Of a stretch of DNA of 10,778 nucleotides, positions 1 through 10,778 are shown piece by piece. The notes under the pieces were generated by a model. That model was not told where the DNA came from. It saw only the letters and a program-made list of their open reading frames with translations, and made no database searches. The DNA is taken from NCBI GenBank assembly GCA_021782055.1, contig JAJXVP010000078.1, positions 1 to 10,778 of the forward strand, given 5' to 3'. Positions within the stretch are counted from its first letter, which is position 1, and each line of letters begins with the position of its first letter. The translations under genes were made by a program, and so were the position numbers. Source of the stretch: a bacterium. Lineage in GTDB: Bacteria; Spirochaetota; Spirochaetia; JABEVK01.

Positions 1-34
1 TTTCTAGGTCGGCCGGGGTCACAAAGAGCTTCAT
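1..34 (-). CDS. 5' end of an unidentified gene, cut by window edge; candidate immunity gene
   Basis: Only the first 11 codons are inside the window, reading MKLFVTPADLE, so the product cannot be identified. The start is well supported: ATG at 34-32 is preceded on the minus strand by a GGAGG ribosome binding site at 47-43 with 8 nt spacing. It begins 33 nt after the stop of the Rhs-type tip at 68-583. By analogy with the two other tips in this window, each followed closely by a small gene, this is a candidate immunity gene; that role is inference from position only. Confidence 0.5.
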   Translation of the reverse strand, partial: MKLFVTPADLE

Positions 35-67: not shown

Positions 68-583
68 CTAAATCGCAAAGCTGGTAAATTCCCCTCCCCA
101 GCGACTCAGAATTTTTAGAGGTTCCCTAAAGTTAAATATTGCACCGAGGCCTTTTGCCATCGCGGAAAAATCGTACGGATTCAAGGTATCGAGTACATCT
201 GAGTTTCCGGTTGATGCGGTTATTATACCACCCATACCGAGTGGTAATCCAACTCCGAATATTCCGCTGACATCCAGAGAAAGCCTTTTGGCATTTTCAG
301 GATTCATAGCACCACCACTTTGTCCAAGGTTTCGAATGTCATTAAAAGCTAACCCAATAGTCTTCATAACTCTGTCCACTGTCCTTGCAACTTTAATCGT
401 GGATATAGATGCTGTTGTTATTTTCCCGTCGAATTTAATCTCAACTTGTGTAGTTGGTCCTGGAGTCAATTGCGCTTCCATTGCCTTACCTTGAAAGAAT
501 GACAAAACGATACTGACAATGGATGAAAAAATATCACTATGCAACCCGCTCGAATCTTTAAACTCAAGAGGTTTCTCACTTAC
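68..583 (-). CDS. Orphan Rhs C-terminal tip A (displaced toxin-tip fragment), unknown toxin domain
   Basis: The open frame begins after an in-frame TGA at 586-584 and reads VSEKPLEFKDSSGL before turning into about 157 residues of unrelated sequence. NPL-x-F-x-DPSGL is the usual exit of the Rhs/YD-repeat core, after which a variable toxin domain starts, so this looks like a displaced tip. No start codon with a ribosome binding site is visible; the first in-frame TTG (544) is the Leu of SGL. The body has a hydrophobic N-terminal patch (IFSSIVSIVLSFF), a middle rich in Lys, Thr and Ile, and a Gly-rich hydrophobic stretch (GIFGVGLPLGMGGI). I do not recognise a catalytic motif. It shares a 93-nt upstream repeat with tip B at 3508-3600. 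A gene with a good ribosome binding site starts 33 nt downstream. Expression is doubtful unless the tip is joined to a full rhs gene. Confidence 0.6.
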   Translation of the reverse strand, partial: VSEKPLEFKDSSGLHSDIFSSIVSIVLSFFQGKAMEAQLTPGPTTQVEIKFDGKITTASISTIKVARTVDRVMKTIGLAFNDIRNLGQSGGAMNPENAKRLSLDVSGIFGVGLPLGMGGIITASTGNSDVLDTLNPYDFSAMAKGLGAIFNFREPLKILSRWGGEFTSFAI

Positions 584-634
584 TCACGGCTATCCAACGT
601 TTTAGGGCCTTCGCCCTTACCTGATTTCAAAGAA
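542..634 (-). repeat. Direct repeat copy 1: Rhs-core exit remnant
   Basis: This 93-nt segment aligns without gaps to 3508-3600 at about 77 of 93 positions (my hand count). The part nearest the tip encodes the PLEFKDSSGL exit motif. The distal part has stops in that frame, but in another frame both copies read SLK(S/P)GKGEGPK with mostly synonymous differences, suggesting former coding sequence. It is probably rhs-core homology carried by displaced tips. Confidence 0.7.
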
Positions 635-710
635 CAACATTTTCCGTTTCGTCACTAAGTGTACTAGTCATCTTATCTCGGATCAATAGGAATATATCGA
701 TGCCCTCGCC

Positions 711-1028
711 TCATCCCTGCACAAGGATTTTTTGCCTGGCCAAAAGGTCTTTTTCGTTAGCAATAACTTCCATCAGCCGTGCGGCAGAACCGTTAGGAAT
801 GTTCTTCCCGGATTCCCAGGCTTCCACAGTCTTTTTGGATACCCCAAGAACCATCCCAAAGATACTTTGACTAACCTTCAGCTCTTGCCTCAACGACTTA
901 ATGTTCTGCGCTTCCCATTGAGGAACGGGCTCAATGACTACTGTAGTCTTTTTCAGGTCAAGTTTCCCTTCCTTGAACGCCTTAACGTCTTCCAACCCTT
1001 TCATGATCTTTTCAAATGCTTCTCCCAC
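711..1028 (-). CDS. higA: HigA-type antitoxin, XRE-family HTH
   Basis: This is the antitoxin of the intact toxin-antitoxin pair at 711-1366; it is expected to bind and neutralise the upstream RelE-fold toxin and to repress the operon. The C-terminal half carries an XRE helix-turn-helix (IKSLRQELKVSQSIFGMVLGVSKKTVEAWE region), followed by the GxxxPxGxAxRLMEVI segment common in HigA antitoxins of this class; the N-terminal 40 residues are charged and helical. The toxin stop is at 1042-1040. A GTG at 1034 sits only 1 nt behind the GGAGG, whereas the GTG at 1028 has 7 nt spacing, so I take 1028 as the start (about 105 residues). The operator is probably the inverted repeat at 1382-1396. Confidence 0.85.
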   Translation of the reverse strand: MGEAFEKIMKGLEDVKAFKEGKLDLKKTTVVIEPVPQWEAQNIKSLRQELKVSQSIFGMVLGVSKKTVEAWESGKNIPNGSAARLMEVIANEKDLLARQKILVQG

Positions 1029-1039
1029 GGTCACGCCTC

Positions 1040-1366
1040 CTACAAATTCTTAATGAACGCTTTCATCGCTTTCTTTTCAGCTTCACTCAAGTTCGTCTTC
1101 TCGTTTTTCCCAAAGACAGCTAGCAAATAGAGTGTTCCGTCTTTTGAATCGTCCCAATAGATTACCCGTACGCCAGAGCTCTTTCCACTATGTTGCCATT
1201 CCTTTCCCCACCGAAGCTTCCTGGCCCCTCCGGCTCCATCAATCATCGGTCCGGAACTTGGATACTCTGCCAGATAATTTTGCAAGGCTCTCATCTCGTC
1301 GTCAGTCTGCCCCATAGCTTTCCAATCACCACTGAACCCCTTGGTTTCAACAAACTCCCGTTTCAT
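1040..1366 (-). CDS. higB: HigB/RelE-type toxin (PF06296-like), intact
   Basis: A 108-residue protein of the RelE/HigB superfamily, whose members are mRNA interferases that usually act on translated mRNA. Family features visible are GAGGARKLRWG near residue 45, VRVIYWDD in the central strand, YLLAVFGKNEK, and the C-terminal LSEAEKKAMKAFIKNL helix typical of the group paired with HigA/NadS-like antitoxins. The ATG at 1366 has GGAG 5-6 nt upstream. The antitoxin gene follows within 11 nt, so the two are one operon. Upstream lie a TTGACA promoter element and an operator-like inverted repeat, plus the decayed tail of a recombinase gene. No frameshift or stop is seen, so this pair is a candidate active module. 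Confidence 0.87.
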   Translation of the reverse strand: MKREFVETKGFSGDWKAMGQTDDEMRALQNYLAEYPSSGPMIDGAGGARKLRWGKEWQHSGKSSGVRVIYWDDSKDGTLYLLAVFGKNEKTNLSEAEKKAMKAFIKNL

Positions 1367-1381
1367 TGGATCTCCATACAG

Positions 1382-1396
1382 CCCTATCTAATAGGG
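1382..1396 (-). promoter_or_regulatory. Operator-like inverted repeat of the higBA pair at 711-1366
   Basis: CCCTAT and ATAGGG form a perfect 6-bp inverted repeat around a CTA spacer. It lies 16 nt upstream of the toxin ATG and overlaps the putative -10 element, where HigA-type antitoxins usually bind for autoregulation. The function is inferred from position. Confidence 0.5.
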
Positions 1397-1421
1397 TATG
1401 TTTTACTATTTTATTTGTCAA
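1393..1421 (-). promoter_or_regulatory. Putative sigma70 promoter of the higBA pair at 711-1366
   Basis: A perfect TTGACA (1421-1416) is followed after 17 nt by TACCCT (1398-1393), a weak -10 matching TATAAT at three positions. It overlaps the final codons of the recombinase tail remnant (GTT GAC AAA TAA), so the toxin-antitoxin promoter appears to be embedded in the 3' end of the old recombinase gene. Confidence 0.4.
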
Positions 1422-1476
1422 CTCTTTCTTGGGTCCCCAGTCCTGCCACCCGTTCCCTGTACTCTTCATCCACTGG
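1411..1476 (-). pseudogene. Tyrosine-recombinase C-terminal tail remnant 1
   Basis: The minus strand reads VDEEYRERVAGLG then TQERVDK and a TAA at 1413-1411. The VDEEYRERVAGLG part is nearly the same as the tail of the recombinase remnant at 7723-7872 and similar to VDEEYRQAAASL in the remnant at 4831-5179. Upstream (about 1476) the homology stops and istA sequence begins, so only the last 20 or so codons are left. The two other copies, where the catalytic region can still be read, are what identify it. Confidence 0.6.
1436..1467 (-). repeat. 32-nt identical direct repeat, copy 1 (recombinase tail)
   Basis: This 32-nt block is identical to 7736-7767 in the same orientation. It encodes EEYRERVAGLG of the recombinase tail in both places. 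It could be the scar of recombination between tails, or att-like repeats bounding the 6.3 kb in between. Confidence 0.85.
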
Positions 1477-2359
1477 CCTCTGGTCTGGCAAAACTCTTTA
1501 AGCTGTTCTTGGTCCACCTGTTCCAACCAAGCTCCGATGGCACCGTTCAGCTCCGCGATGGACGTTAGCCCTTTCTCCCTGGCCATTGGTAGGAAGTGGT
1601 TGCCCAAGTATCCGATGAACCGCTCCACCTTGCCTTTGGTCTGAGGACGGCGGACCTGACAGCGTTTGAGCTCGAAACCGATTTGGGCAGCGTACAGGCT
1701 AAGCGACGAGTTGACCTGCCATTCCGGGCCCATGGCGACCCAGCCGGGTTTCATATTGTTGTAGAGAACCTCAGCAGGGACGCCGCCAAAGTAGGTAAAG
1801 GCTTCGTTATGAGCCGCCAACAAGACTGGAGAGGTCATGGACGATGTGAACAAAACAAAAGGCTTGCGGCTGTAGCCCAGCAGCATCACGAAGGCGTAGA
1901 CCTTGAGGATGTTCCCGTCGACGATCCATCGCCCGCACTCCTTCCAATCTACCTGAGCTTGCCGTCCCGGTTCCGTTTCAAACCTGAGGACGGCTTTGAT
2001 CAACACCTGTTCCCGTTTTGAAGCTGCATACTCCCGAAGAATGGTCATTCCACCCTTATACCCCTTGGAACGTAGCCGCTCGGCCAGAACTGTGAGGTTG
2101 AAGAACTGCTTTTCTTCGAGTATTCTATCGATGTCCGGTCTGTACGAATCCAAGAGACTTGGCCTCGCAGGCCTTAATTTGGGTTGAAAGTCGTCCCCAA
2201 GATACTTTCGGACCATCCGGTCTGAGACCCCGAGAAGCTCGGCAATCTCCTTCTGTTTGTGGCCTGATCTGGCCAGGATGCGAGCTTGATGCATCCTATA
2301 CTCCTTTTGACAAATGGGGCGGTTTTTCCTTTGGGTATTGTGTGGTAACAACACCGTAA

Positions 2360-2530
2360 AGGGCCGCCCTTTTCATGTCAAAAGCGGAACTTGGAAACCT
2401 ATGATTTCCGGAACTTTATCACCGGTGATGACAGTCAGCCTTGAATTCGTACATCTTTCGCTGAGTCTTAGTGTCAAATCTCATGCCCAGATGGCCTTTT
2501 AAGGCACTCTCGTTTTACGCCGAACTTTTC
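2360..2530 (-). mobile_element. Probable terminal region of the IS21-like element upstream of istA
   Basis: The 170 nt between istA and the membrane-protein gene have no ORF I can support. They hold a segment reading CTTTTGACATGAAAAGG on the minus strand, a perfect 12-bp palindrome ATCACCGGTGAT at 2418-2429, and TTTACGCCGAACTTTTC at 2514-2530. Short repeated motifs ahead of istA are normal for IS21 elements, where they bind the transposase. I cannot define the exact end or a target duplication. Confidence 0.4.
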
Positions 2531-2800
2531 CTAATTTCCGGAAAGATGTTGTGTAATGAACTGAACTTGCTCATAGATTACGGCAAACCCCACAGCGCAT
2601 ATTACCATAATGAACACCCATTTCGGGTTATTCTTAGCCTTAACTTTTCTCCAATTCCATAGTCCTAAAAAAGCGAATCCTATGACTAATAGACCAATAA
2701 ATGTTGTTGGGGCAATATAGAACTGTGCTAACCAGATGTTGACAGGATCCAGCCAAGGCTCTATGAATTTGTTATAAAACTGAGCTTTAATGTTCAACAT
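2531..2800 (-). CDS. Small membrane protein, candidate immunity protein of Rhs tip B
   Basis: An 89-residue protein with two predicted transmembrane helices (about residues 28-47, IAPTTFIGLLVIGFAFLGLW, and 62-77, VFIMVICAVGFAVIY) joined by a short basic loop (WRKVKAKNNPK). ATG at 2800 is preceded by AAGGAG within 6 nt, and the gene starts 20 nt after the stop of the Rhs tip at 2821-3549, so the two are probably cotranscribed. Small integral membrane immunity proteins usually pair with toxins that attack membranes, which would fit the Ala/Gly-rich hydrophobic tip. The pairing is inferred from position; I recognise no named family. Confidence 0.65.
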   Translation of the reverse strand: MLNIKAQFYNKFIEPWLDPVNIWLAQFYIAPTTFIGLLVIGFAFLGLWNWRKVKAKNNPKWVFIMVICAVGFAVIYEQVQFITQHLSGN

Positions 2801-2820
2801 TAGTCTCCTTGAACAAAATC

Positions 2821-3549
2821 TTACTTTGTTGCATTTACAGTCGTGTCCACAACAGAACCCACAACAGTAGAGGTTAAAAGTGTCAGGATATTTTTGATCT
2901 GAGAAATTGAAGTATTTAAGAATTGTCCAGATGCAGCCCTAAACCTACTAACAGTCTCATCAAACTTAGGGGCCAAACCAGGTTTAAACATCGGGGCAAT
3001 ATCAAGTGAAAGACTCGTAATTGAAGTAGCAATTTTCTTTGGATTGCCAGTCACAATATTTGCTAGAAGGCCTCCAACGTCTAAAGCTGTCGCAGCAGAC
3101 TCGGCTGCTGCAGCTCCAGAAAAATCTCCCATAACTAGTGATCCCATGGCAAAAGCGTTAAAACCAAGAGCGGCATTACTCGCTGTGTCCGCTATTTTTG
3201 GGGCAGATCCTTTGACGTTATTTATGGCTTGCTGAACACTTTGTTTGACACCATAGATAGCATTGCTCACCACTCCATTGACAACGTCACCGTAGGAGCC
3301 TTCGGATTCGACTTGAGTCATGTTGTATTGCGCTGGGGACTTTGAGGAACTTGATACGTTATTGTAAGGTAATTTATTTGGACTATTTTGGGTTTGGCTT
3401 TTTGGTTGCATAACAGGAGCTGCAGGCATACTCGGTTTCTTTGCAGGAACATTATACTTATTGGTATCCGTGTTGTAGGTAACACCACTTGCCAACGAAA
3501 CCGTTTCCAACCCGCTCGGATCTTGAAACTCTAACCGTTTCTCACTTAC
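2821..3549 (-). CDS. Orphan Rhs C-terminal tip B, hydrophobic Ala/Gly-rich domain
   Basis: The open frame starts after an in-frame TGA at 3552-3550 and reads VSEKRLEFQDPSGLE, the Rhs-core exit, before unique sequence. The first in-frame start-like codon is TTG at 3510 (Leu of SGL) with no ribosome binding site, so it is a displaced tip rather than a complete gene. Residues about 20-60 form a Pro/Ser/Asn-rich linker (AKKPSMPAAPVMQPKSQ). From about residue 80 comes an amphipathic to hydrophobic region rich in Ala, Gly, Val and Ser (ALGFNAFAMGSLVMGDFSGA, then ALDVGGLLANIVTG), and the end is Thr/Val-rich. No catalytic motif is visible; the composition would suit a membrane-active toxin. A small two-helix membrane protein follows after 20 nt. 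The 93-nt upstream repeat is shared with tip A. Confidence 0.62.
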   Translation of the reverse strand, partial: VSEKRLEFQDPSGLETVSLASGVTYNTDTNKYNVPAKKPSMPAAPVMQPKSQTQNSPNKLPYNNVSSSSKSPAQYNMTQVESEGSYGDVVNGVVSNAIYGVKQSVQQAINNVKGSAPKIADTASNAALGFNAFAMGSLVMGDFSGAAAAESAATALDVGGLLANIVTGNPKKIATSITSLSLDIAPMFKPGLAPKFDETVSRFRAASGQFLNTSISQIKNILTLLTSTVVGSVVDTTVNATK

Positions 3550-3600
3550 TCAAGGCTAAGCAATATCTTAGGGCCTTCACCCTTGCCCGGTTTCAAAGAA
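3508..3600 (-). repeat. Direct repeat copy 2: Rhs-core exit remnant
   Basis: Gap-free partner of 542-634 over 93 nt. The proximal 40 nt (exit motif) also match 6810-6845 in tip C; further upstream tip C is only loosely similar. It gives displaced tips shared homology ahead of unrelated toxin domains. Confidence 0.7.
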
Positions 3601-3669
3601 CACTCGCGTCTAATCCGCTTAGAGCAGTATAAAACCAACCTGGACTAACTGCAAGTCCATTGCTTTAAC

Positions 3670-3976
3670 TCACTTCTTCTGAGGTGGTCTTATAGAACCT
3701 ACCCCTCTGATTTGAGGTTTCTTTGGTACCTGAAGTGCTGGCATTTTAATTGATGCCTGATTTTGCGGAAGGTCGTTGACACTATAACCTCCCCGTGAAG
3801 GTGTTTTCTGGTCAGGCATTTTTGGTATTGACCTTTGCGTTCGTGGACGGACCAGCCTTACTTGCCTCAGCTTTCGGAGGTTTCACCGGAGGCATCGAAA
3901 CCTTCGAGCTATTTTGAGGTAGCTGACGCTCTTCAATGATCGGACTTTGGTTCATCACTCGATTTACCTTGTTCAT
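3670..3976 (-). pseudogene. Pro-rich two-frame fragment with repeated LPQN...MP...PK unit
   Basis: Two short frames overlap here. The first starts at ATG 3976 and stops at TGA 3814-3812 (54 residues). The second starts at ATG 3819 and stops at TGA 3672-3670 (49 residues). They encode similar segments: QLPQNSSKVSMPPVKPPK in the first and DLPQNQASIKMPALQVPKK in the second. The shared repeat across two frames suggests one ancestral Pro-rich repetitive linker split by a frameshift near 3815. The first frame stays free of stops upstream to about 4138 without a start, overlapping the end of the antitoxin gene in another frame. The composition resembles the Pro-rich linker of tip B, so this may be another displaced rhs fragment. 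An alternative is two translationally coupled small genes (ATG and TGA overlap). Confidence 0.4.
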
Positions 3977-4074
3977 TCTGAATCTCACGTATAGTTCCTT
4001 AAAAAATAATCGTCCACTAGGCGGTTTGCCAAGTCGATTAACTTTGTCTTCTTCGGCAATATATAGTGGCGGTT

Positions 4075-4392
4075 TCAGGAATGGAACAGCAGTACTTCCG
4101 ACGGAACGCCCTGTTTGGGAGTCTTGGGCCGGACTTTAATTTCCATTTCAAGGTCCATTTGAGTGAGGTATTTTACCAAAGTCGAGAGCTTGATGTCAGT
4201 CCGGCCTTCAATCCGCGAGATCGCTGGTTGCGAAAAGCCTTTGATGTCAGTCTGTTTGACCTTGTACTGTTCCCGTAGTTCCGCCAGTTTGAGGATGAGC
4301 AATTCCCGTTCGTAGATCTCATTGGAACGGACAATTGACTCTTTACTCATGACGCTTTCCATCGCCGCCATCGCCTCTTTCACAATCGCCAT
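4075..4392 (-). CDS. higA: HigA-type antitoxin, XRE-family HTH
   Basis: A 105-residue antitoxin partner of the toxin at 4411-4761, expected to bind the toxin and repress the operon. The HTH lies at about residues 37-80 (LREQYKVKQTDIKGFSQPAISRIEGR then STLVKYLTQMDLEMEIKV); the closing strand segment is typical of antitoxins paired with Gp49-like HigB toxins. ATG at 4392 has AGGAGG 7 nt upstream, and the toxin stop is 18 nt before it. The last 15 residues (KTPKQGVPSEVLLFHS) look unlike the family and may reflect a changed 3' end at a junction, since another stop-free frame overlaps here. Confidence 0.83.
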   Translation of the reverse strand: MAIVKEAMAAMESVMSKESIVRSNEIYERELLILKLAELREQYKVKQTDIKGFSQPAISRIEGRTDIKLSTLVKYLTQMDLEMEIKVRPKTPKQGVPSEVLLFHS

Positions 4393-4410
4393 CTTTGCGC
4401 CTCCTGCCTC

Positions 4411-4761
4411 TTATTGGGAACTCTGCACTTCTTCGTACAGGGCTTCCGCTTTTGCAATCAATTTGTCATAGAACCGTTTGTCCTCTGACCCGCCTTTCAC
4501 GTCACCAATCAAGAGCAGGCACACCCGTTTCCCGGTGAAGATGAAGACAATCCGGTACTTCCGACCCTGGGCCTGAACCCGAAGTTCTTTCAGGTTCGGG
4601 TACTTACTGCCCTTGAGGGTATCCACATAGGGCCGAGCCAAGGATGGCCCCTTTTCAAGAAGCAGTTTCACGTAGGCGCGAACCGCTTCTTTTACCGGGT
4701 CCGACTGGGCCTTGAACCAATCCAGGTACTCAGTCGTACTTTCAAGCGCCCATTCACCCAC
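4411..4761 (-). CDS. higB: HigB-type toxin (PF05973/Gp49-like RelE fold), intact
   Basis: A 116-residue toxin of the phage-derived Gp49-like branch of the RelE superfamily, predicted to cleave mRNA on the ribosome. The characteristic run is present: EKGPSLARPYVDTLKGS, LKELRVQAQGRKYRIVFIF, LLLIGDVKGGSEDKRFYDKL, then a terminal helix. The start is GTG at 4761, supported by GGGAGG (4773-4768) with 6 nt spacing. The antitoxin follows 18 nt downstream, one operon. It lies 69 nt behind the stop of the recombinase remnant at 4831-5179, the same arrangement as two other pairs here. The full length and conserved core suggest it may be functional. Confidence 0.88.
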   Translation of the reverse strand: MGEWALESTTEYLDWFKAQSDPVKEAVRAYVKLLLEKGPSLARPYVDTLKGSKYPNLKELRVQAQGRKYRIVFIFTGKRVCLLLIGDVKGGSEDKRFYDKLIAKAEALYEEVQSSQ

Positions 4762-4805
4762 AAGTACCTCCCGACCTGACTCGCTGTCCTTGCTCTTGTT
4801 TCAAG

Positions 4806-4829
4806 AATATAACGCAGACGTAATATAAC
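4806..4829 (-). promoter_or_regulatory. Tandem GTTATATT repeats upstream of higBA (promoter/operator candidate)
   Basis: GTTATATT occurs twice on the minus strand (4829-4822 and 4813-4806), 16 nt apart. A TTGAAG just upstream could serve as -35, with TATATT of the second repeat as -10. AT-rich promoter with repeated half-sites is a reasonable antitoxin target, but function is inferred from position only. Confidence 0.3.
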
Positions 4830-4830
4830 T

Positions 4831-5179
4831 TCAAGGTAATCCCTGGATCTTTTCCGATCCTCTTGCCAGAACCTTCCACTTTCGCAGGAGTTCAGCCTTG
4901 AGACTGGCGGCGGCCTGCCGGTACTCCTCATCCACTTCCCGGTAGAGTTCGTTTTTCCGAGGGTGGTAGCTCTTGAACATCCGCTTGAGGCCCTAGATCT
5001 GTACATGGGTGTAACGGGCGGTGGTTTCGATCGACGAATGCCCGAGGAGTTGCGAAGACGGTGCGCACGTCGGCCCCGGCTTCCAGAAGGTGCATGGTGC
5101 AACTGTGACGGACGGAATGAACGGTGCGATTCTACTTCGGGGTCCCTGCTTTTTTTAAGGTTTGGGCGAAGGCCTTCTA
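4831..5179 (-). pseudogene. Decayed tyrosine recombinase, C-terminal catalytic half
   Basis: Reading the minus strand from 5176, the frame gives KAFAQTLKKAGTPK, a TAG, then NRTVHSVRHSCTMHLLEAG followed by ADVRTV. A one-base shift then gives QLLGHSSIETTARYTHVQI, a second TAG, and GLKRMFKSYHPRKNELYREVDEEYR, ending KIQGLP and TGA at 4833-4831. The box-II pattern HxxRH, the LLGHSSIETT block and the nucleophile Tyr in RYTHV identify a tyrosine recombinase (Xer/integrase type). There are two in-frame stops and a frameshift near 5049-5055, so it is inactive. The N-terminal domain is missing or unrecognisable above 5179. A toxin-antitoxin pair starts 69 nt downstream. Confidence 0.85.
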
Positions 5180-5421
5180 AGTCAGGGTCTTCGTCAGGCG
5201 GCCTAATGGCTGGCTTAACCTGCGCCACCCGGAACGGACGGCGTCAGGTTGAAGCGATAATTAGGCTCATAGGTTGTCCGAAATCTACTTCACTCACGAC
5301 ATATTCAATAGGCTTTAAACTTCACAATTATATTTTTTCAGTCATTCTGAGGCACAATAGATTTGAAAACCACCGATTTATTTCTTCGAACTTAATGGAA
5401 CATACCAATCATCAGAATTTT
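5180..5421. other. Gap without a supported gene
   Basis: Between the lipoprotein stop and the first readable recombinase codons. The half nearest the lipoprotein is AT-rich with no ORF or hairpin I can support. The half nearest the recombinase is more G+C-rich and probably decayed recombinase sequence. Confidence 0.4.
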
Positions 5422-6120
5422 CTATTCCTGTCCCCAATGTTCTTTTGACACCGAAAGTTCATGAAACGTCATCGTCTTCAAATCCACTTCACAGTCTGCG
5501 GCACGAGTGTCTCCAGCAACGTCAATCATCATCTGAAATCTAAAGGAATTACTTAACCCATCAAAGTTGATACCCCATGAGTCCCTTGTTTGAATAATAC
5601 CTTCAAACTTCTTGTCCGTAAATTTTTTGATCATTTTCCCAGACTCCAAATCAAATATTTCTATATAATTTCCCGATTCTTTGTTCCAACCATCGCGAAA
5701 CAAATACTTCATGTCGGCGGATAATGCAAATGACCGAATCAAAGGTAATTTCCAACTTGTCGCTTTCCCATCTTCAGGAGTTATTTTCCAAAATCTGCCT
5801 TCATTAGCATATTCACCATATTGAAAGATTTCTCCCCAGACAAACCAAGACGAAAAAGACTTGATAAAAGCCGGACCGTTTCCAATAAGCTTTATTCGTG
5901 CAAATCGGACTGTCTTCGTCCCATCCTTCTCCAAAAAATCAACATAGTTGTACCAACCTTTTGGATCACCAAAATTGTAAGCGTCTTCGTGTACTATCAC
6001 GTCTGAATTGTGTGCAACCGGGGTAAAATGAAATTCCACCAAATTGAGGTTTTTACAACTTCCAACAAGCACTATCAACAGAATAAGAAAATACCTAGAG
6101 AGCAGAGAGGCTCTCGTCAT
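5422..6120 (-). CDS. Lipoprotein, candidate immunity protein of Rhs tip C
   Basis: A 232-residue protein with a lipoprotein signal: basic start, hydrophobic segment (YFLILLIVLVGSC) and lipobox VGSC with Cys at residue 22, so it should be exported and lipid-anchored. The mature part has strand-rich repeats with Trp and Asp-Gly turns (RFWKITPEDGKATSWKL, then IEIFDLESGKMIKKF), which could be blades of a beta-propeller; I do not assign a family. Its ATG (6120-6118) overlaps the TGA (6119-6117) of the upstream peptidase tip, a coupling typical of toxin-immunity pairs. An exported immunity protein would imply that the toxin acts in the periplasm or at the envelope. The role is inferred from position. 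Confidence 0.7.
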   Translation of the reverse strand: MTRASLLSRYFLILLIVLVGSCKNLNLVEFHFTPVAHNSDVIVHEDAYNFGDPKGWYNYVDFLEKDGTKTVRFARIKLIGNGPAFIKSFSSWFVWGEIFQYGEYANEGRFWKITPEDGKATSWKLPLIRSFALSADMKYLFRDGWNKESGNYIEIFDLESGKMIKKFTDKKFEGIIQTRDSWGINFDGLSNSFRFQMMIDVAGDTRAADCEVDLKTMTFHELSVSKEHWGQE

Positions 6121-7046
6121 TTTCCGCCTCCAAACATTCCAGTAAAGAATGAAACAATCGGATTCTGCTTTTCTACCGGCGAGGCACTCGTTACAGCATC
6201 GACTTTCTGACTTTCAGGTAATGAAGGTGCTTTTGTAAAGTCGTAAATCTCCTTCACCGCAGACAAATCTATGTATGATGTTTTGGCGCCGTTTTCTTCA
6301 GTAACTACCTTCCATGTTGGACCAAGTCTATCTTCCTTCTGCAAGTCATGCCCAGAGCTGGGCGCCACCATACCCCACGCCTTACCATTGAAATAATGAA
6401 TTCCGTTTATGCCAACCCAATGACTTTCAGGTCCCTTTCCGAAGTTAATCGAAATCTCGGCTTCAATTGAGTACCCTTTCCCCGTGTCTTTGCTGAATCC
6501 TACTATTTTTTTTGAAAGGTCTCCTTGAACCGCTCTAGTCCAATAATCTGGTGTTAAACCCTTACTTTGCGCATAATCAAATATCCTTTGTCTGCTTGTC
6601 TCTGAACTATTGGGTTCAAAGAAGGAACGATCAATATTCAGGGTTGACGGATTTACATAGGTTCCAGATGCGGCACTTACAGAATGCGCTGTTGCGAACA
6701 AGGTACAGCCATAAAGGTTGATGGTATCAGATTCTTTACCATATCCCAGTCTTACTTTATTGTACTCCTTGTCGCTCATCAAATTCGGAGAAGACTGATC
6801 AATTATCCACAACCCGCTCGGATCTTGAAACTCAAGAGGGTTCTCACAATTCTTGACTTCAACGTTACTTAGTGCCTTTGACTCGTCCTGATTTTTAGAA
6901 GATGAGCCCAGATTACCGGAGGTAAGACACAGAATCATCCAGTCGGTCAGAATCTCGAATTGTAACTGTTGAATGGCCGCCAGAACCAAGACAGTTGGTG
7001 TCAGGGGATGGGGGGAAGAATTGTGCAATCGGAGGCCTGGGGGCAT
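6117..7046 (-). CDS. Orphan Rhs C-terminal tip C with papain/C39-like cysteine peptidase domain
   Basis: The frame carries the Rhs-core exit NPLEFQDPSGL at residues 69-79 (6845-6810, as CENPLEFQDPSGL), then a toxin-like domain. Numbered from ATG 7046, the block NLYGCTLFATAHSV holds Cys114 and PESHWVGINGI holds His209, the pattern of papain-fold C39-like peptidases (Cys in a GC-x-LTS/A helix, later HWV-x-x-x-GI strand). Asn215 or a later polar residue could be the third catalytic member. The C-terminus is Pro/Ser-rich and ends FFTGMFGGGK. ATG 7046 has no ribosome binding site, and residues 1-65 do not look like Rhs core, so the start is doubtful and the part upstream of 6845 may be unrelated. 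The lipoprotein gene overlaps by 4 nt downstream and is the likely immunity gene. Confidence 0.62.
   Translation of the reverse strand: MPPGLRLHNSSPHPLTPTVLVLAAIQQLQFEILTDWMILCLTSGNLGSSSKNQDESKALSNVEVKNCENPLEFQDPSGLWIIDQSSPNLMSDKEYNKVRLGYGKESDTINLYGCTLFATAHSVSAASGTYVNPSTLNIDRSFFEPNSSETSRQRIFDYAQSKGLTPDYWTRAVQGDLSKKIVGFSKDTGKGYSIEAEISINFGKGPESHWVGINGIHYFNGKAWGMVAPSSGHDLQKEDRLGPTWKVVTEENGAKTSYIDLSAVKEIYDFTKAPSLPESQKVDAVTSASPVEKQNPIVSFFTGMFGGGK
6810..6845 (-). repeat. Third copy of the Rhs-core exit motif
   Basis: Encodes ENPLEFQDPSGL. From GAG TTT through GGG TTG it is identical to the tip B copy and differs from tip A at two bases. Its conserved position immediately ahead of unrelated domains in all three tips marks the core-to-tip boundary. 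Confidence 0.75.
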
Positions 7047-7378: not shown

Positions 7379-7692
7379 TTCCACTCTTCCCTTACCAGCT
7401 GAACCAGTTTCTTTTTCTGAACTGGAGTCAAATCAACCTGCTCATTCTTGGGATAGGCAAAAAGTAAGTAAATTTGGTCCTGGTCATTCTTAAAGTAGTA
7501 GATGACCCGGATTCCTCCCCGTTTTCCACGGCCTTCACCACCCCATCGAATCTTACTTAAACCATCAGTACCTTAAAGGACGTCTCCAGCCTCTGGTTGA
7601 AGGATCAGAGCATCTTGCAAACCCTTGTGGCTGTCATCGTCCAGAAGTCCTAGAATCTGCCTGGTGAACACGCTGGTTTCAAAGAACTGCAT
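7375..7692 (-). pseudogene. higB: HigB/RelE-type toxin (PF06296-like) with one in-frame stop
   Basis: From ATG 7692 the frame reads MQFFETSVFTRQILGLL, continues to QPEAGDVL, meets TAA at 7575-7573, then continues in the same frame with GTDGLSKIRWGG, RGGIRVIYYFKN, YLLFAYPKNEQVDLTPVQKK and a TGA at 7377-7375. All RelE-family blocks are present: in relatives the stop position is usually Lys or another residue in GDVIxGTGGLRKIRW. A single A-to-T change (AAA to TAA) would explain it. Length without the stop would be 105 residues. Unless the stop is read through or is a sequencing error, the toxin is dead. The gene sits 30 nt behind the recombinase tail at 7723-7872. Confidence 0.88.
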
Positions 7693-7706
7693 AGACAATA
7701 ATGTGC

Positions 7707-7728: not shown

Positions 7729-7872
7729 TTCTCCTCCCAGTCCTGCCACCCGTTCCCTGTACTCTTCCTCCACCACCGCAAACAATCGGTTATCTAGTAT
7801 TAAATGGCTATACCGGGCCGTGCTTTCGATGTTGCTATGCCCATTCTTCAAGAAATGGGTTGCCGTCGAATG
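7723..7872 (-). pseudogene. Decayed tyrosine recombinase C-terminus with internal deletion
   Basis: The minus strand reads HSTATHFLKNGHSNIESTARYSHLI, then AVVEEEYRERVAGLGGEH and TGA at 7725-7723. HSTATHFLKNG is the box-II region, and GHSNIESTARYSHL holds the nucleophile Tyr. The ten or so residues normally between them (VDLRTIQxLL in relatives) are missing, an in-frame deletion, and the box-II Arg before HS is lost. Upstream of 7872 the similarity fades. The tail shares 32 identical nt with the remnant at 1411-1476. A toxin-antitoxin pair starts 30 nt downstream. Confidence 0.78.
7736..7767 (-). repeat. 32-nt identical direct repeat, copy 2 (recombinase tail)
   Basis: Identical partner of 1436-1467, same orientation and same reading frame of the recombinase tail. 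Confidence 0.85.
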
Positions 7873-8016
7873 CGGGTTATTCAAGGCAGAAGTCCTTGGG
7901 AAGCAAGGACCTTGGATACGCCGAGAGGATGTTGAATTGGCAACGCTGGAATTGTTTTAGAGGTTCAACACCAAACTTTTATTATAATCAACCGGCTCGT
8001 TGAGTCCGGACTCAAA

Positions 8017-8049
8017 GAAAAAAGGCCATCCTCAAAACTTTGGATGACC
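8017..8049 (-). terminator. Intrinsic terminator after the higA at 8072
   Basis: On the minus strand GGTCATCC and GGATGGCC form an 8-bp stem (one G-U pair) with a 10-nt loop, followed directly by TTTTTTCTTT. It begins 23 nt after the antitoxin stop. Confidence 0.8.
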
Positions 8050-8071: not shown

Positions 8072-8365
8072 TCACCGAAACTCGATCACCAGTTCCTTTC
8101 CTAATGCATGGGCTACTTTTTCCAAGGTTTCCAACCGAGCACCTCCAGAGCGGTTCTCTAACCTCGACACCGCTGACTTCGTCGTCCTCAGTCTCCGAGG
8201 CAATTCTTCCTGCGTGATACCCTTTTCCTGCCTCAACCCCTTGATGACCAATCCCACCCGCAATTCAGCAAGTTCCTGTTCAACCATCCCCTCAAATCCA
8301 GAGGACACGCTGGCCCGCTCTCGAATCATCCGATCTACTTCGCTCCTTTCGTACTCCTCTGCCAA
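8072..8365 (-). CDS. higA: HigA-type antitoxin, XRE-family HTH
   Basis: A 97-residue antitoxin: N-terminal helix (EVDRMIRERASVSSGFEGMV), HTH (LRQEKGITQEELPRRLRTTKSAVSRLE) and the closing LETLEKVAHALGKELVIEF strand, typical of antitoxins paired with Gp49-like HigB toxins. The given start is TTG at 8365, overlapping the toxin remnant by 31 nt and keeping the family's N-terminal helix. An alternative is ATG at 8329, 5 nt after the toxin stop, with AGGAG about 13 nt upstream. An intrinsic terminator follows. The toxin is broken, so this may be a solitary antitoxin. Confidence 0.82.
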   Translation of the reverse strand: MAEEYERSEVDRMIRERASVSSGFEGMVEQELAELRVGLVIKGLRQEKGITQEELPRRLRTTKSAVSRLENRSGGARLETLEKVAHALGKELVIEFR

Positions 8366-8560
8366 TCGGCTTTGTAGTCCTTCGCCTTCTTTATCTCAGA
8401 ATCCGGTGTCTTCTGCGTCTTCTTTTGGAAGGTGTGGGTCAAAATCACCAGATTCCCCTTGTCCCAGAAACCCAAAAAACCGGTAAATATGCCCCGCAAG
8501 CCCTACTCGGCACTCGTACAGGTCAAGCACGCTGAGCATTGGTTCCTCCCGTCCTTCCAT
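8335..8560 (-). pseudogene. higB: HigB-type toxin (Gp49-like), frameshifted and N-terminally truncated
   Basis: From ATG 8560 the frame gives EEPMLSVLDLYECRV, LAGHIYRFFGF, then loses the family. Shifting one base at the TTTTTTGGG run (8479-8471) restores FWDKGNLVILTHTFQKKTQKTP, DSEIKKAKDYKADWQ and a TAG at 8337-8335. LTHTFQKKTQKTP with the IYRFFGFW strand is diagnostic of the HigB/Gp49 family. One extra G (or T) explains the shift; without it the frame stops at 8398-8396. The first 50 or so family residues are absent, with a TAA at 8578-8576 in frame upstream. A sequencing error in the homopolymer could account for the shift but not for the missing N-terminus. Confidence 0.85.
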
Positions 8561-8807: not shown

Positions 8808-10067
8808 TCATGGGCGGATAACCCGGAACCCGTAGGCATTACCTTTGGCATAAGGATAATCGTAGTTGATGTAACTCAGGACAAAGGTGGTACCAAGGGA
8901 ATTCCAATAGCCTTCACGCAACATTCGTTGAGTTCCCGAGGTTGGTCCCTGGTAGTTAGTTTGTGCCGTGGTAGGATCGGAGCCCTGCCAGTCCCAGCAC
9001 CATTCCCAAACATTCCCACTCAAATCGTAGATTCCTAACTCGTTCGCCGTCTTGGTTCCCACAGAGTGTGTTGTGCTTGAACTGTTCGAGCCATACCAAG
9101 CATAATTTCCAAGGTTTGCTTGGCCACCACTTGCCTCAGTACTACCTGCATAACCTTTATTGTAACCTGCCGTATTAACTCCACCAACAAGATCACTGGT
9201 CAGCCCGTCGCTCATGCCACCCATAGCCGCCCACATATTTTCCATTCGCGTGGGTAACCGGTAACCGTTGGCATTGGTGTTGACGGTTACAGCGTCCCAA
9301 GTCGTATTGTCAGCGGTAGGAATCGTACCCCAGGATGAGGGACTAGTACTTCCTCCAATTGAATACACTGGGGTAAGCCCTTCATTACTACTTAAATCGT
9401 TACAAAAGACGAGGGCAGCATACCAACTTACGGTATCCACAGGATGATTAGAGACGGAGCTGAAAGAACTGGGGTCCGCTAACCCGGTCACGCTGGCGAA
9501 CTGAGCTCCCGTAATCAGATTCGCACTCATATGAAACGTACTCACCGTCATATTCGGGCCCCCAGACTGCAGGGTGAAGGTTCCCCCCGCTACCGGAACA
9601 AGCGTCCCAATATTGGTCGAGGTCACATTGCCGAGCTGGCTTAGAGTGATGCTCACAGAATTTGTCCCCGTGGAGTTAACCGTAAACCCTGACGTTAACC
9701 CACTCCACACTACGGCATTGCTCGAGTTATACGCATACGCCCAGAAGTCAGTTGCTCCGGTCGCATTGACCTTAAAACTCCCCGTCCACGCCGAAACACC
9801 CTTGGTCAGCGTTCCGCTTCCTTCGCTGGTACCACTTTGAAGGGCCACAATCAACACCTTTGTTACGGTGCTATCACTAATCAAGCTTCGGGGTGACCCA
9901 GTCGAAGTGCTTGCCGTCACCGCAACGTTAGCAGTCCCCCCACTTCCAGAACTTCCACTCGATACGAAGTTACTGCTTAACGACGCCTGGGTCGGATTTG
10001 AACACCCCACCAAGACAGCCAAAGCGGCACCGACAACGGTTAGGGTAAATCGTTTCCTCAAATTCAT
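8808..10067 (-). CDS. Lipoprotein with SUMF1/FGE-like domain, probably non-catalytic
   Basis: A 419-residue exported lipoprotein. The signal is MNLRKRFTLTVVGAALAVLVGC with lipobox LVGC and Cys22. ATG 10067 is chosen over 10088 because GGGAG lies 7 nt upstream. Residues about 28-60 are a Ser/Gly/Thr linker, and about 60-145 a beta-rich domain. From about 148 to the end is the formylglycine-generating-enzyme/SUMF1 fold: LVPVAGGTFTL, HPVDTVSWYAALVFCNDLS, NGYRLPTRMENMWAA, NELGIYDLSGNVWEWCWDW and a final GNAYGFRVIRP. The segment usually RVLRGGSW is MLREGYW. The Cys pair used by aerobic FGE in the C-terminal block is absent, so a binding role (C-type-lectin-like fold) is more likely than sulfatase activation. 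It follows the 37-codon ORF by 17 nt. Confidence 0.88.
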   Translation of the reverse strand: MNLRKRFTLTVVGAALAVLVGCSNPTQASLSSNFVSSGSSGSGGTANVAVTASTSTGSPRSLISDSTVTKVLIVALQSGTSEGSGTLTKGVSAWTGSFKVNATGATDFWAYAYNSSNAVVWSGLTSGFTVNSTGTNSVSITLSQLGNVTSTNIGTLVPVAGGTFTLQSGGPNMTVSTFHMSANLITGAQFASVTGLADPSSFSSVSNHPVDTVSWYAALVFCNDLSSNEGLTPVYSIGGSTSPSSWGTIPTADNTTWDAVTVNTNANGYRLPTRMENMWAAMGGMSDGLTSDLVGGVNTAGYNKGYAGSTEASGGQANLGNYAWYGSNSSSTTHSVGTKTANELGIYDLSGNVWEWCWDWQGSDPTTAQTNYQGPTSGTQRMLREGYWNSLGTTFVLSYINYDYPYAKGNAYGFRVIRP

Positions 10068-10084
10068 AGGTTTCTCCCGAATCG

Positions 10085-10198
10085 TCACTGCGCTGTTACG
10101 CTAACGGTATAGTTTGTTAACTCGGTGACCTGCCCCAGCTCAACGAGCTCGGGGGTTTGGTAGGTCAATTCCACTATTGTTGGAATTGGCTTCAACAT
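10085..10198 (-). CDS. 37-residue peptide with lasso-leader-like motif
   Basis: ATG at 10198, with GAGGGAG 5 nt upstream, opens a frame of 37 codons ending in TGA at 10087-10085. The peptide contains YQTPELVELGQVTELT. Tyr, Pro (+3), Leu (+5), Gly (+9) and Thr (+15) match the spacing of lasso-peptide leader regions, which are recognised by RRE (PqqD-like) domains. Only nine residues (NYTVSVTAQ) follow the Thr, too short for a lasso core and without a Gly/Ala/Ser/Cys first residue or Asp/Glu at ring position 7-9. No RiPP maturation genes are in the window. The lipoprotein gene begins 17 nt downstream, so the two may form an operon. Role unknown; the motif match is what I see, a RiPP relationship is inference. 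Confidence 0.5.
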   Translation of the reverse strand: MLKPIPTIVELTYQTPELVELGQVTELTNYTVSVTAQ

Positions 10199-10350: not shown

Positions 10351-10778
10351 TTAGAAGCGGAAGAGCATGTCTTCGTAGGTGGGGTACGGGTAATAGTCTG
10401 CAGGCAACACGCCTTCTAGAGCGTCCACGGCAGAGCGAACGCCCGCCATAGCAACAAAGACCTTTTCGCGGTAAAGTTTGGCCTTCTTGTGAGTATCGCC
10501 TTCGTCACGAGCACCGGCTAATTCTTTTTCAAGCACAGCCAGGGCGCCATAGGATTTTGCCAAAAGATCACCACCAGCCTTAAGCTGAGCTTCAGGTCCG
10601 CTGACGTCAACCTTAACGGCTTTCAGGGTTTCGATACTCGCTGCCAGACCAGTCAGCCATTCCAAAACGGAAGGCAGAATGTTCTTCTTGACCATTTCAA
10701 TCTGGACACCGGCTTCGATGTTGATGGTCTTGGCATACTTCTCGAGGTAGATCTCGACACGACTATGCAGCTCTTCTT
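10351..10778 (-). CDS. glnN: Glutamine synthetase type III, C-terminal end (partial)
   Basis: The last 141 codons or so of a GSIII enzyme, which makes glutamine from glutamate, ammonia and ATP. The frame is open to the window edge: EELHSRVEIYLEKYAKTINI, then EAGVQIEMVKKNILPSVLEW, the conserved GSIII segment (RxEIxLExYxKxxxIEAxxMxxMxxxxILPA) in the C-terminal helical domain. It ends PADYYPYPTYEDMLFRF, like the usual WPxPTYxxxLF ending. The catalytic barrel is outside the window, so activity cannot be judged. The ATG at 10695 is an internal Met, not the start. A strong terminator follows. This marks the housekeeping edge of the accessory region. Confidence 0.93.
   Translation of the reverse strand, partial: EELHSRVEIYLEKYAKTINIEAGVQIEMVKKNILPSVLEWLTGLAASIETLKAVKVDVSGPEAQLKAGGDLLAKSYGALAVLEKELAGARDEGDTHKKAKLYREKVFVAMAGVRSAVDALEGVLPADYYPYPTYEDMLFRF

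Follow-up and report, generated by a model that had tools for sequence, protein, structure and literature searches.

Three putative orphan Rhs tips with candidate immunity genes in an accessory island of an uncultured Spirochaetales bacterium

Orphan Rhs tips are C-terminal toxin domains stored apart from a full-length rhs gene. Here, we describe a candidate group of three such tips in a DNA stretch of 10,778 nucleotides (nt) from an uncultured Spirochaetales bacterium (contig JAJXVP010000078.1; hereafter the window, meaning the whole stretch). Three minus-strand frames, termed T1, T2 and T3, share a 38-nt sequence that codes the exit from an Rhs core, and diverge completely after it. T1 (68..574) carries the exit KPLEFKDSSGL followed by 158 amino acids (aa) with two weakly hydrophobic stretches, T2 (2821..3537) the exit RLEFQDPSGL followed by 229 glycine/alanine-rich aa that are predicted, at low confidence, to be helical, and T3 (6117..6842) the exit NPLEFQDPSGL followed by a candidate papain-like peptidase domain. 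Directly after each tip, on the same strand, lies a small gene with a putative immunity role. The gene after T1 (1..34) is cut by the window edge, so that only 11 of its codons are seen; its ATG at 34 follows the T1 stop at 68 by 33 nt, with a purine-rich run upstream as judged by eye. The T2 partner (2531..2800) codes for 89 aa with two predicted membrane helices and begins at 2800, leaving 20 nt to the T2 stop at 2821, and the T3 partner (5422..6120), of 232 aa with a lipoprotein-like N-terminus, overlaps T3 by 4 nt (6117-6120). Strong Shine-Dalgarno-like runs precede all three partner starts (by eye).

The 38-nt exit of T3 (6810-6847) recurs with 35/38 matching positions at 542-579 in T1 and with 33/38 at 3508-3545 in T2. 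Since the next best place on the minus strand reaches just 23/38, this likeness is not due to chance. The motif PxxxxDPxGL, published as the border between Rhs core and tip (PMC3150448), is exact in T3 only, while T1 (PLEFKDSSGL) and T2 (RLEFQDPSGL) each differ from it by one residue. None of the three frames has a convincing start. In T1 and T2, the leucine codon of SGL, a TTG, is the first ATG, GTG or TTG to follow the last in-frame stop, and T3 stays open for 68 codons further upstream, from an ATG at 7046 before which no Shine-Dalgarno sequence is seen by eye. The preliminary description had claimed that three frames of one orientation open with an Rhs exit, lack a convincing start and are followed by a small gene within 33 nt or with a 4-nt overlap, and all of this was borne out.

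Could the three frames nonetheless be expressed as stand-alone short proteins, T3 from its upstream ATG and T1 and T2 from the TTG of SGL, acting as cytoplasmic or exported toxins that need no Rhs shell? The T3 frame is indeed open to the ATG at 7046, and gene callers predict shorter proteins inside all three frames (P0004, P0006 and P0007). However, no Shine-Dalgarno sequence is seen by eye before any of these candidate starts, the tips have no export signal, and the exit codons would serve no purpose in such proteins. We therefore regard this explanation as very improbable.

What links these frames to Rhs proteins beyond the exits themselves? Among 5.8 billion proteins, T3 matched the window's own copy and a single further protein, P0005, which is 66% identical over 99% of T3 and has the exit NPIRFTDPTGL in place of NPLEFQDPSGL. 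A two-sequence T3 profile, searched in 392 Spirochaetota genomes, reached 35 of them at E <= 1, with the best match (E 4.8e-20) in a 1942-aa open frame of genome G354 that also carries the Pfam family RHS_repeat (E 4.9e-79). Ten loci were fetched from the 35 matching genomes and nine were used, the other 25 genomes having weaker matches or no fetched loci; the match dropped (L095 in G144, E 0.034) lies in a regulator-like frame. In seven of the nine relatives, the domain is immediately preceded by an Rhs-type exit; of the other two, one belongs to a phage hub protein of GPD type and one is a fragment that follows a stop. Two to three of the seven stand at the end of frames of 1916-1957 aa, and the more distant relatives supply the final domain of long Rhs frames (1942, 1916 and 1957 aa), with RHS_repeat in the fetched stretches. 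Because P0005 has a different Rhs exit at the same place and distant relatives end full-length Rhs proteins, these comparisons show T3 to be a genuine detached Rhs tip. In the hub locus (L092, 148-2004), a T3-type domain ends a phage baseplate-hub (GPD) protein and is followed by an exported-type partner, which looks like the same effector on another carrier. T3 searches of phages and plasmids gave chance-like matches only.

Residues L36, C50, H145, V147 and D170 (P0003 numbering, residue 1 at 6854) are invariant in all 11 aligned sequences of the T3 family. The catalytic order Cys, His, Asp is present in T3 (C50, H145, D170), and its Cys and His align with the corresponding residues of 17 C39_2 stretches, drawn from 30 loci that were fetched. 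The order and spacing of these residues suggest that T3 is most likely a papain-like (C39-type) peptidase, and its action would lie outside the cytoplasm, because the partner, with a hydrophobic N-terminus ending in GSC, is a predicted lipoprotein. Likewise, the gene after the T3-type domain has an exported-type hydrophobic N-terminus in 9 of the 10 loci with context (by eye and hydropathy), the exception being a formate/nitrite transporter gene in L093. One of ten T3 relatives reaches the Pfam family PF13529 (E 0.047), though with 14.7 bits it stays below the cut-off of 24, and searches of solved structures with T3, by sequence and by profile, returned nothing. C39-related peptidases are known tips of polymorphic toxins, and the standalone cassettes with Tox-PL-C39 tips described in PMC3482391 resemble the present arrangement in being a cassette store with C39-related, papain-like toxin domains. 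T3 differs from them in that it falls below the Pfam C39 models, and its membership rests on Cys/His/Asp together with weak profile similarity.

T1 and T2 stand apart. Protein searches returned only a near-identical copy (P0006) for T1 and only the window's own copy (P0007) for T2. In the same 392 genomes, matches at E <= 0.1 were found in 25 genomes for T1 and 18 for T2, the best being 5.3e-4 and 0.001, and all 12 fetched T1/T2 loci, judged by their longest frames, lack an Rhs setting. Neither tip was found as the C-terminus of a full-length Rhs protein in the protein searches or in these genomes. The T2 partner has no Pfam family over the cut-off, and PHROGs and PADLOC hold no match for any of the five tip and partner frames. 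Since this partner has two predicted membrane helices and T2 itself combines a high glycine and alanine content with helices predicted at low confidence, we would guess that T2 is a membrane-acting tip.

T1 and T2 have more in common than the exit. Over 95 nt they are 83% identical (542-636 versus 3508-3602), which comprises 32/38 positions of the exit and 47/57 positions of the DNA upstream of it (580..636 in T1 and 3546..3602 in T2, minus strand). This 57-nt piece contains stops in the exit frame and is non-Rhs DNA; the idea that it is a coding piece of an Rhs core was rejected on account of these stops. It is not clearly present at T3, and relatives of the T2 head sought in the DNA of seven order-mates gave only short chance-like matches, the two best of which (L063 and L064) lie inside unrelated genes. 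As one common head joins 57 nt of non-Rhs DNA to the exit, T1 and T2 most likely descend from a single orphan head that was copied with different tips, and not from two separate displacements.

Heads of this kind are also found elsewhere in Spirochaetota. The Rhs core model TIGR03696 matches 96/296 genomes, often in several short frames in a row. In genome G234, an array holds six head copies, each at least 89% identical to the copy used as query (itself one of the six) and each with a different orphan tip, one of which is T3-like. In the G234 head, non-Rhs DNA of about 235 nt, which includes a strong hairpin, runs into the last approximately 20 core codons. Of 16 genomes tested, 5 contain related heads (24 matches, some full and some partial), and the non-Rhs part also occurs without the Rhs exit in four loci (L116, L121, L125 and L135), which marks it as a repeat in its own right. 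From these occurrences, we conclude that the junction formed once and was then copied. The arrays of G234, G359 and others share with the window a short remainder of the core, a common non-Rhs head, changing tips and a small gene after the tips; they differ in that their heads are about 235 nt of another sequence and no toxin-antitoxin (TA) pairs were noted between the units. By this comparison, the T1/T2 head follows the G234-type plan with another sequence. We found no literature on such arrays in Spirochaetota apart from a mention of Treponema pedis, for which a 50.5-kb RHS cluster and RHS pseudogenes are reported (PMC8049484).

It is conceivable that exit and head together are not rhs remnants but the site of a dedicated cassette-moving system, integron-like or recombinase-driven. 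The same junction in T1 and T2 would fit, as would the many cases in other Spirochaetota in which a non-Rhs repeat with a strong hairpin meets the exit at a single fixed point, and tyrosine-recombinase-like remnants are seen by eye in the window. Nevertheless, the exit is a feature of Rhs proteins and the pattern needs no more than homologous recombination, the 57-nt head is not clearly seen at T3, and no intact recombinase was found within the window, which leaves this explanation rather improbable. A wider proposal concerns the growth of the arrays: those of Spirochaetota would grow as units, in which a non-Rhs repeat fixed to the last core codons serves as the common head for changing tip/immunity pairs, and tips would be collected and swapped in a store away from full-length rhs, with the T1/T2 head as an independent shorter version and T1 and T2 as two undescribed membrane-acting toxin classes. 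Taken as a whole, we consider this proposal unlikely.

The closest known systems are the orphan rhs-CT/rhsI modules of enterobacteria, whose tips, as described in PMC3150448 and PMC3967940, run from PxxxxDPxGL, usually have no translation start and are each followed by an immunity gene. According to the same papers, expression of such orphan tips is toxic, they can be armed by recombining with the main rhs gene, as happens in Salmonella, and E. coli EC93 makes the orphan immunity protein but not the orphan tip. In enterobacteria, the modules immediately follow a full-length rhs gene and in many cases retain more of the core (522 bp in Salmonella LT2). The window, in contrast, keeps 10-11 core codons, has no full-length rhs gene, and holds TA pairs and insertion-element remnants between the tips. 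The silent mafB-CT/mafI cassettes of Neisseria are likewise described (PMC4287609) as arrays of start-less C-terminal cassettes with a short conserved motif first and an immunity gene after; they belong to another carrier protein, MafB, and lie downstream of full-length mafB. An orphan rhs-CT/immunity cassette is thus a well-documented kind of store, here an ordinary system in a little-studied group, and what is particular to the window is that its tips are spread over 7 kb among TA pairs and insertion-element remnants.

We consider it highly probable that an accessory island next to glnN in the window contains three orphan rhs-CT/immunity cassettes, each made up of the last 10-11 codons of an Rhs core, a complete, unrelated and start-less tip, and an immunity gene that has a ribosome-binding site of its own. 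The detached tips are probably silent. The immunity genes would meanwhile be made and would guard the cell against relatives with the same tips, if the tips are toxic and their partners protective as in the known systems. A tip could then be placed on a full-length rhs gene, and so armed, if it recombined there through the short core sequence or was captured by another strain.

A number of results speak against this interpretation. No full-length rhs gene lies within the window, and DNA coding PLEFQDPSGL was absent from genome_contigs (one genome per species, no contig below 3,000 bases) and viral_contigs, and no full-length rhs with that exit was found there; this pattern scan covers neither the T1 and T2 exits nor conservative changes. 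TIGR03696 matched 0/5 related genomes. An Rhs/SpvB-like frame of 1942 aa in a relative (G006) is truncated by the contig at either end. T1 and T2 are classed as Rhs tips solely from exit sequence and layout, no homologue proving them such, and the structure model of T2 is too poor for use. As for T3, several of its relatives are weak (L091-L094, per-genome E 0.0035-0.01). The tip itself has no Pfam match and no C39 model over the cut-off, and its AlphaFold2 model, with a predicted local distance difference test score (pLDDT) of 35, is too poor for use. The hhalign comparison of the T3 family with C39_2 is weak, at a probability of 9.7% and P 0.0033 against P 0.38 for one reversed control. The T3 partner of the window has no pairwise match among the partners of T3 relatives (none with phmmer; E >= 0.96 with BLASTP), and a profile of three partners gave only E 2e-4 in a set of nine and an hhalign probability of 15%; by these measures, no clear kinship links the window partner to the others.

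The preliminary description had gone on to name the frames orphan Rhs tips, a view we share, for T3 through P0005 and the long Rhs frames and for T1 and T2 through exit and layout. Its suggestion that undescribed toxin classes may be present holds for T1 and T2 but has less force for T3, given the papain-like, C39-type look of the latter; profile searches, which it had proposed, brought out relatives of T3 in Spirochaetota and none that convince for T1 and T2 in the 392 genomes. The arrangement is not as unusual as it had assumed, since comparable orphan arrays exist in other Spirochaetota. The store of orphan Rhs tips is hereby extended to an uncultured spirochaete lineage, and it offers for testing T3, a member of a peptidase-like tip family with an exported-type partner, and the two tips T1 and T2, which lack convincing relatives. 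Moreover, orphan tips can have a common non-Rhs head, and the growth of such arrays can therefore be tested by comparing strains.

Beyond the cassettes, all further genes named here lie on the minus strand. A second TA-like pair (711-1366) and an IS21 transposase gene (1347-2354; NCBIfam E 8.3e-72) are located between T1 and T2, and another TA pair, with a Gp49 toxin (E 2.1e-16), between T2 and T3 (4075-4761). TA remnants sit between T3 and the gene for a sulfatase-modifying-factor-like lipoprotein (8808-10088; E 1.8e-25), and the end of a type III glutamine synthetase gene, glnN, follows at 10351-10776 (Pfam C-terminal domain E 4.4e-13).

Such surroundings raise the possibility that tips and immunity genes are decaying debris, stranded in an insertion-element graveyard with no present role. 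The toxin frames of two neighbouring TA pairs are broken (7390-7700, by eye, and 8335-8560), as is the proline-rich frame upstream of T2, and remnants of insertion elements and recombinases lie between the tips. On the other hand, neither the three tips nor the two complete partners have an interrupted frame, the partners keep strong ribosome-binding sites, and T3 and P0005 are 66% identical over the whole length with both frames open. Debris is thus possible, although we think it on the unlikely side, and we prefer the reading of the locus as stored cassettes.

The five tip and partner frames are set apart from ten other measured frames by base composition, with a G+C of 0.38-0.43 and a G+C at third codon positions of 0.35-0.42 compared with 0.47-0.53 and 0.51-0.63. 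The glutamine synthetase shares 94% identity with its counterpart in a Spirochaetales metagenome-assembled genome (L001), which places the host in the Spirochaetales. The 14 other frames of the window that served as queries have no match at any of 12 fetched loci around glnN, and the island is therefore not common to those loci.

Several smaller remnants were also observed. Read by eye, the DNA at 4780-5280 is a remnant that resembles, over two frames, the C-terminal portion of a tyrosine recombinase, and a 55-aa piece of it has no Pfam match. At 3660-3990, upstream of T2, a proline-rich coding remnant is split over two frames and is possibly a decayed fourth cassette or its end. The Gp49-type toxin (4411-4761) is also hit by the PADLOC model NsnC across 102 positions (E 4.3e-12), probably through the shared Gp49 domain. 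An insertion-element remnant at 7873-8026 shares 125 nt at 80% identity with genome G002, where they form part of a transposase frame (rve_3, E 1e-7). Finally, a 38-nt direct repeat (97%) joins the 3' end of the IS21 transposase frame (1436-1473) to a remnant at 7736-7773 that reads ..EEYRERVAGLG.. and that we take to be recombinase-tail-like.

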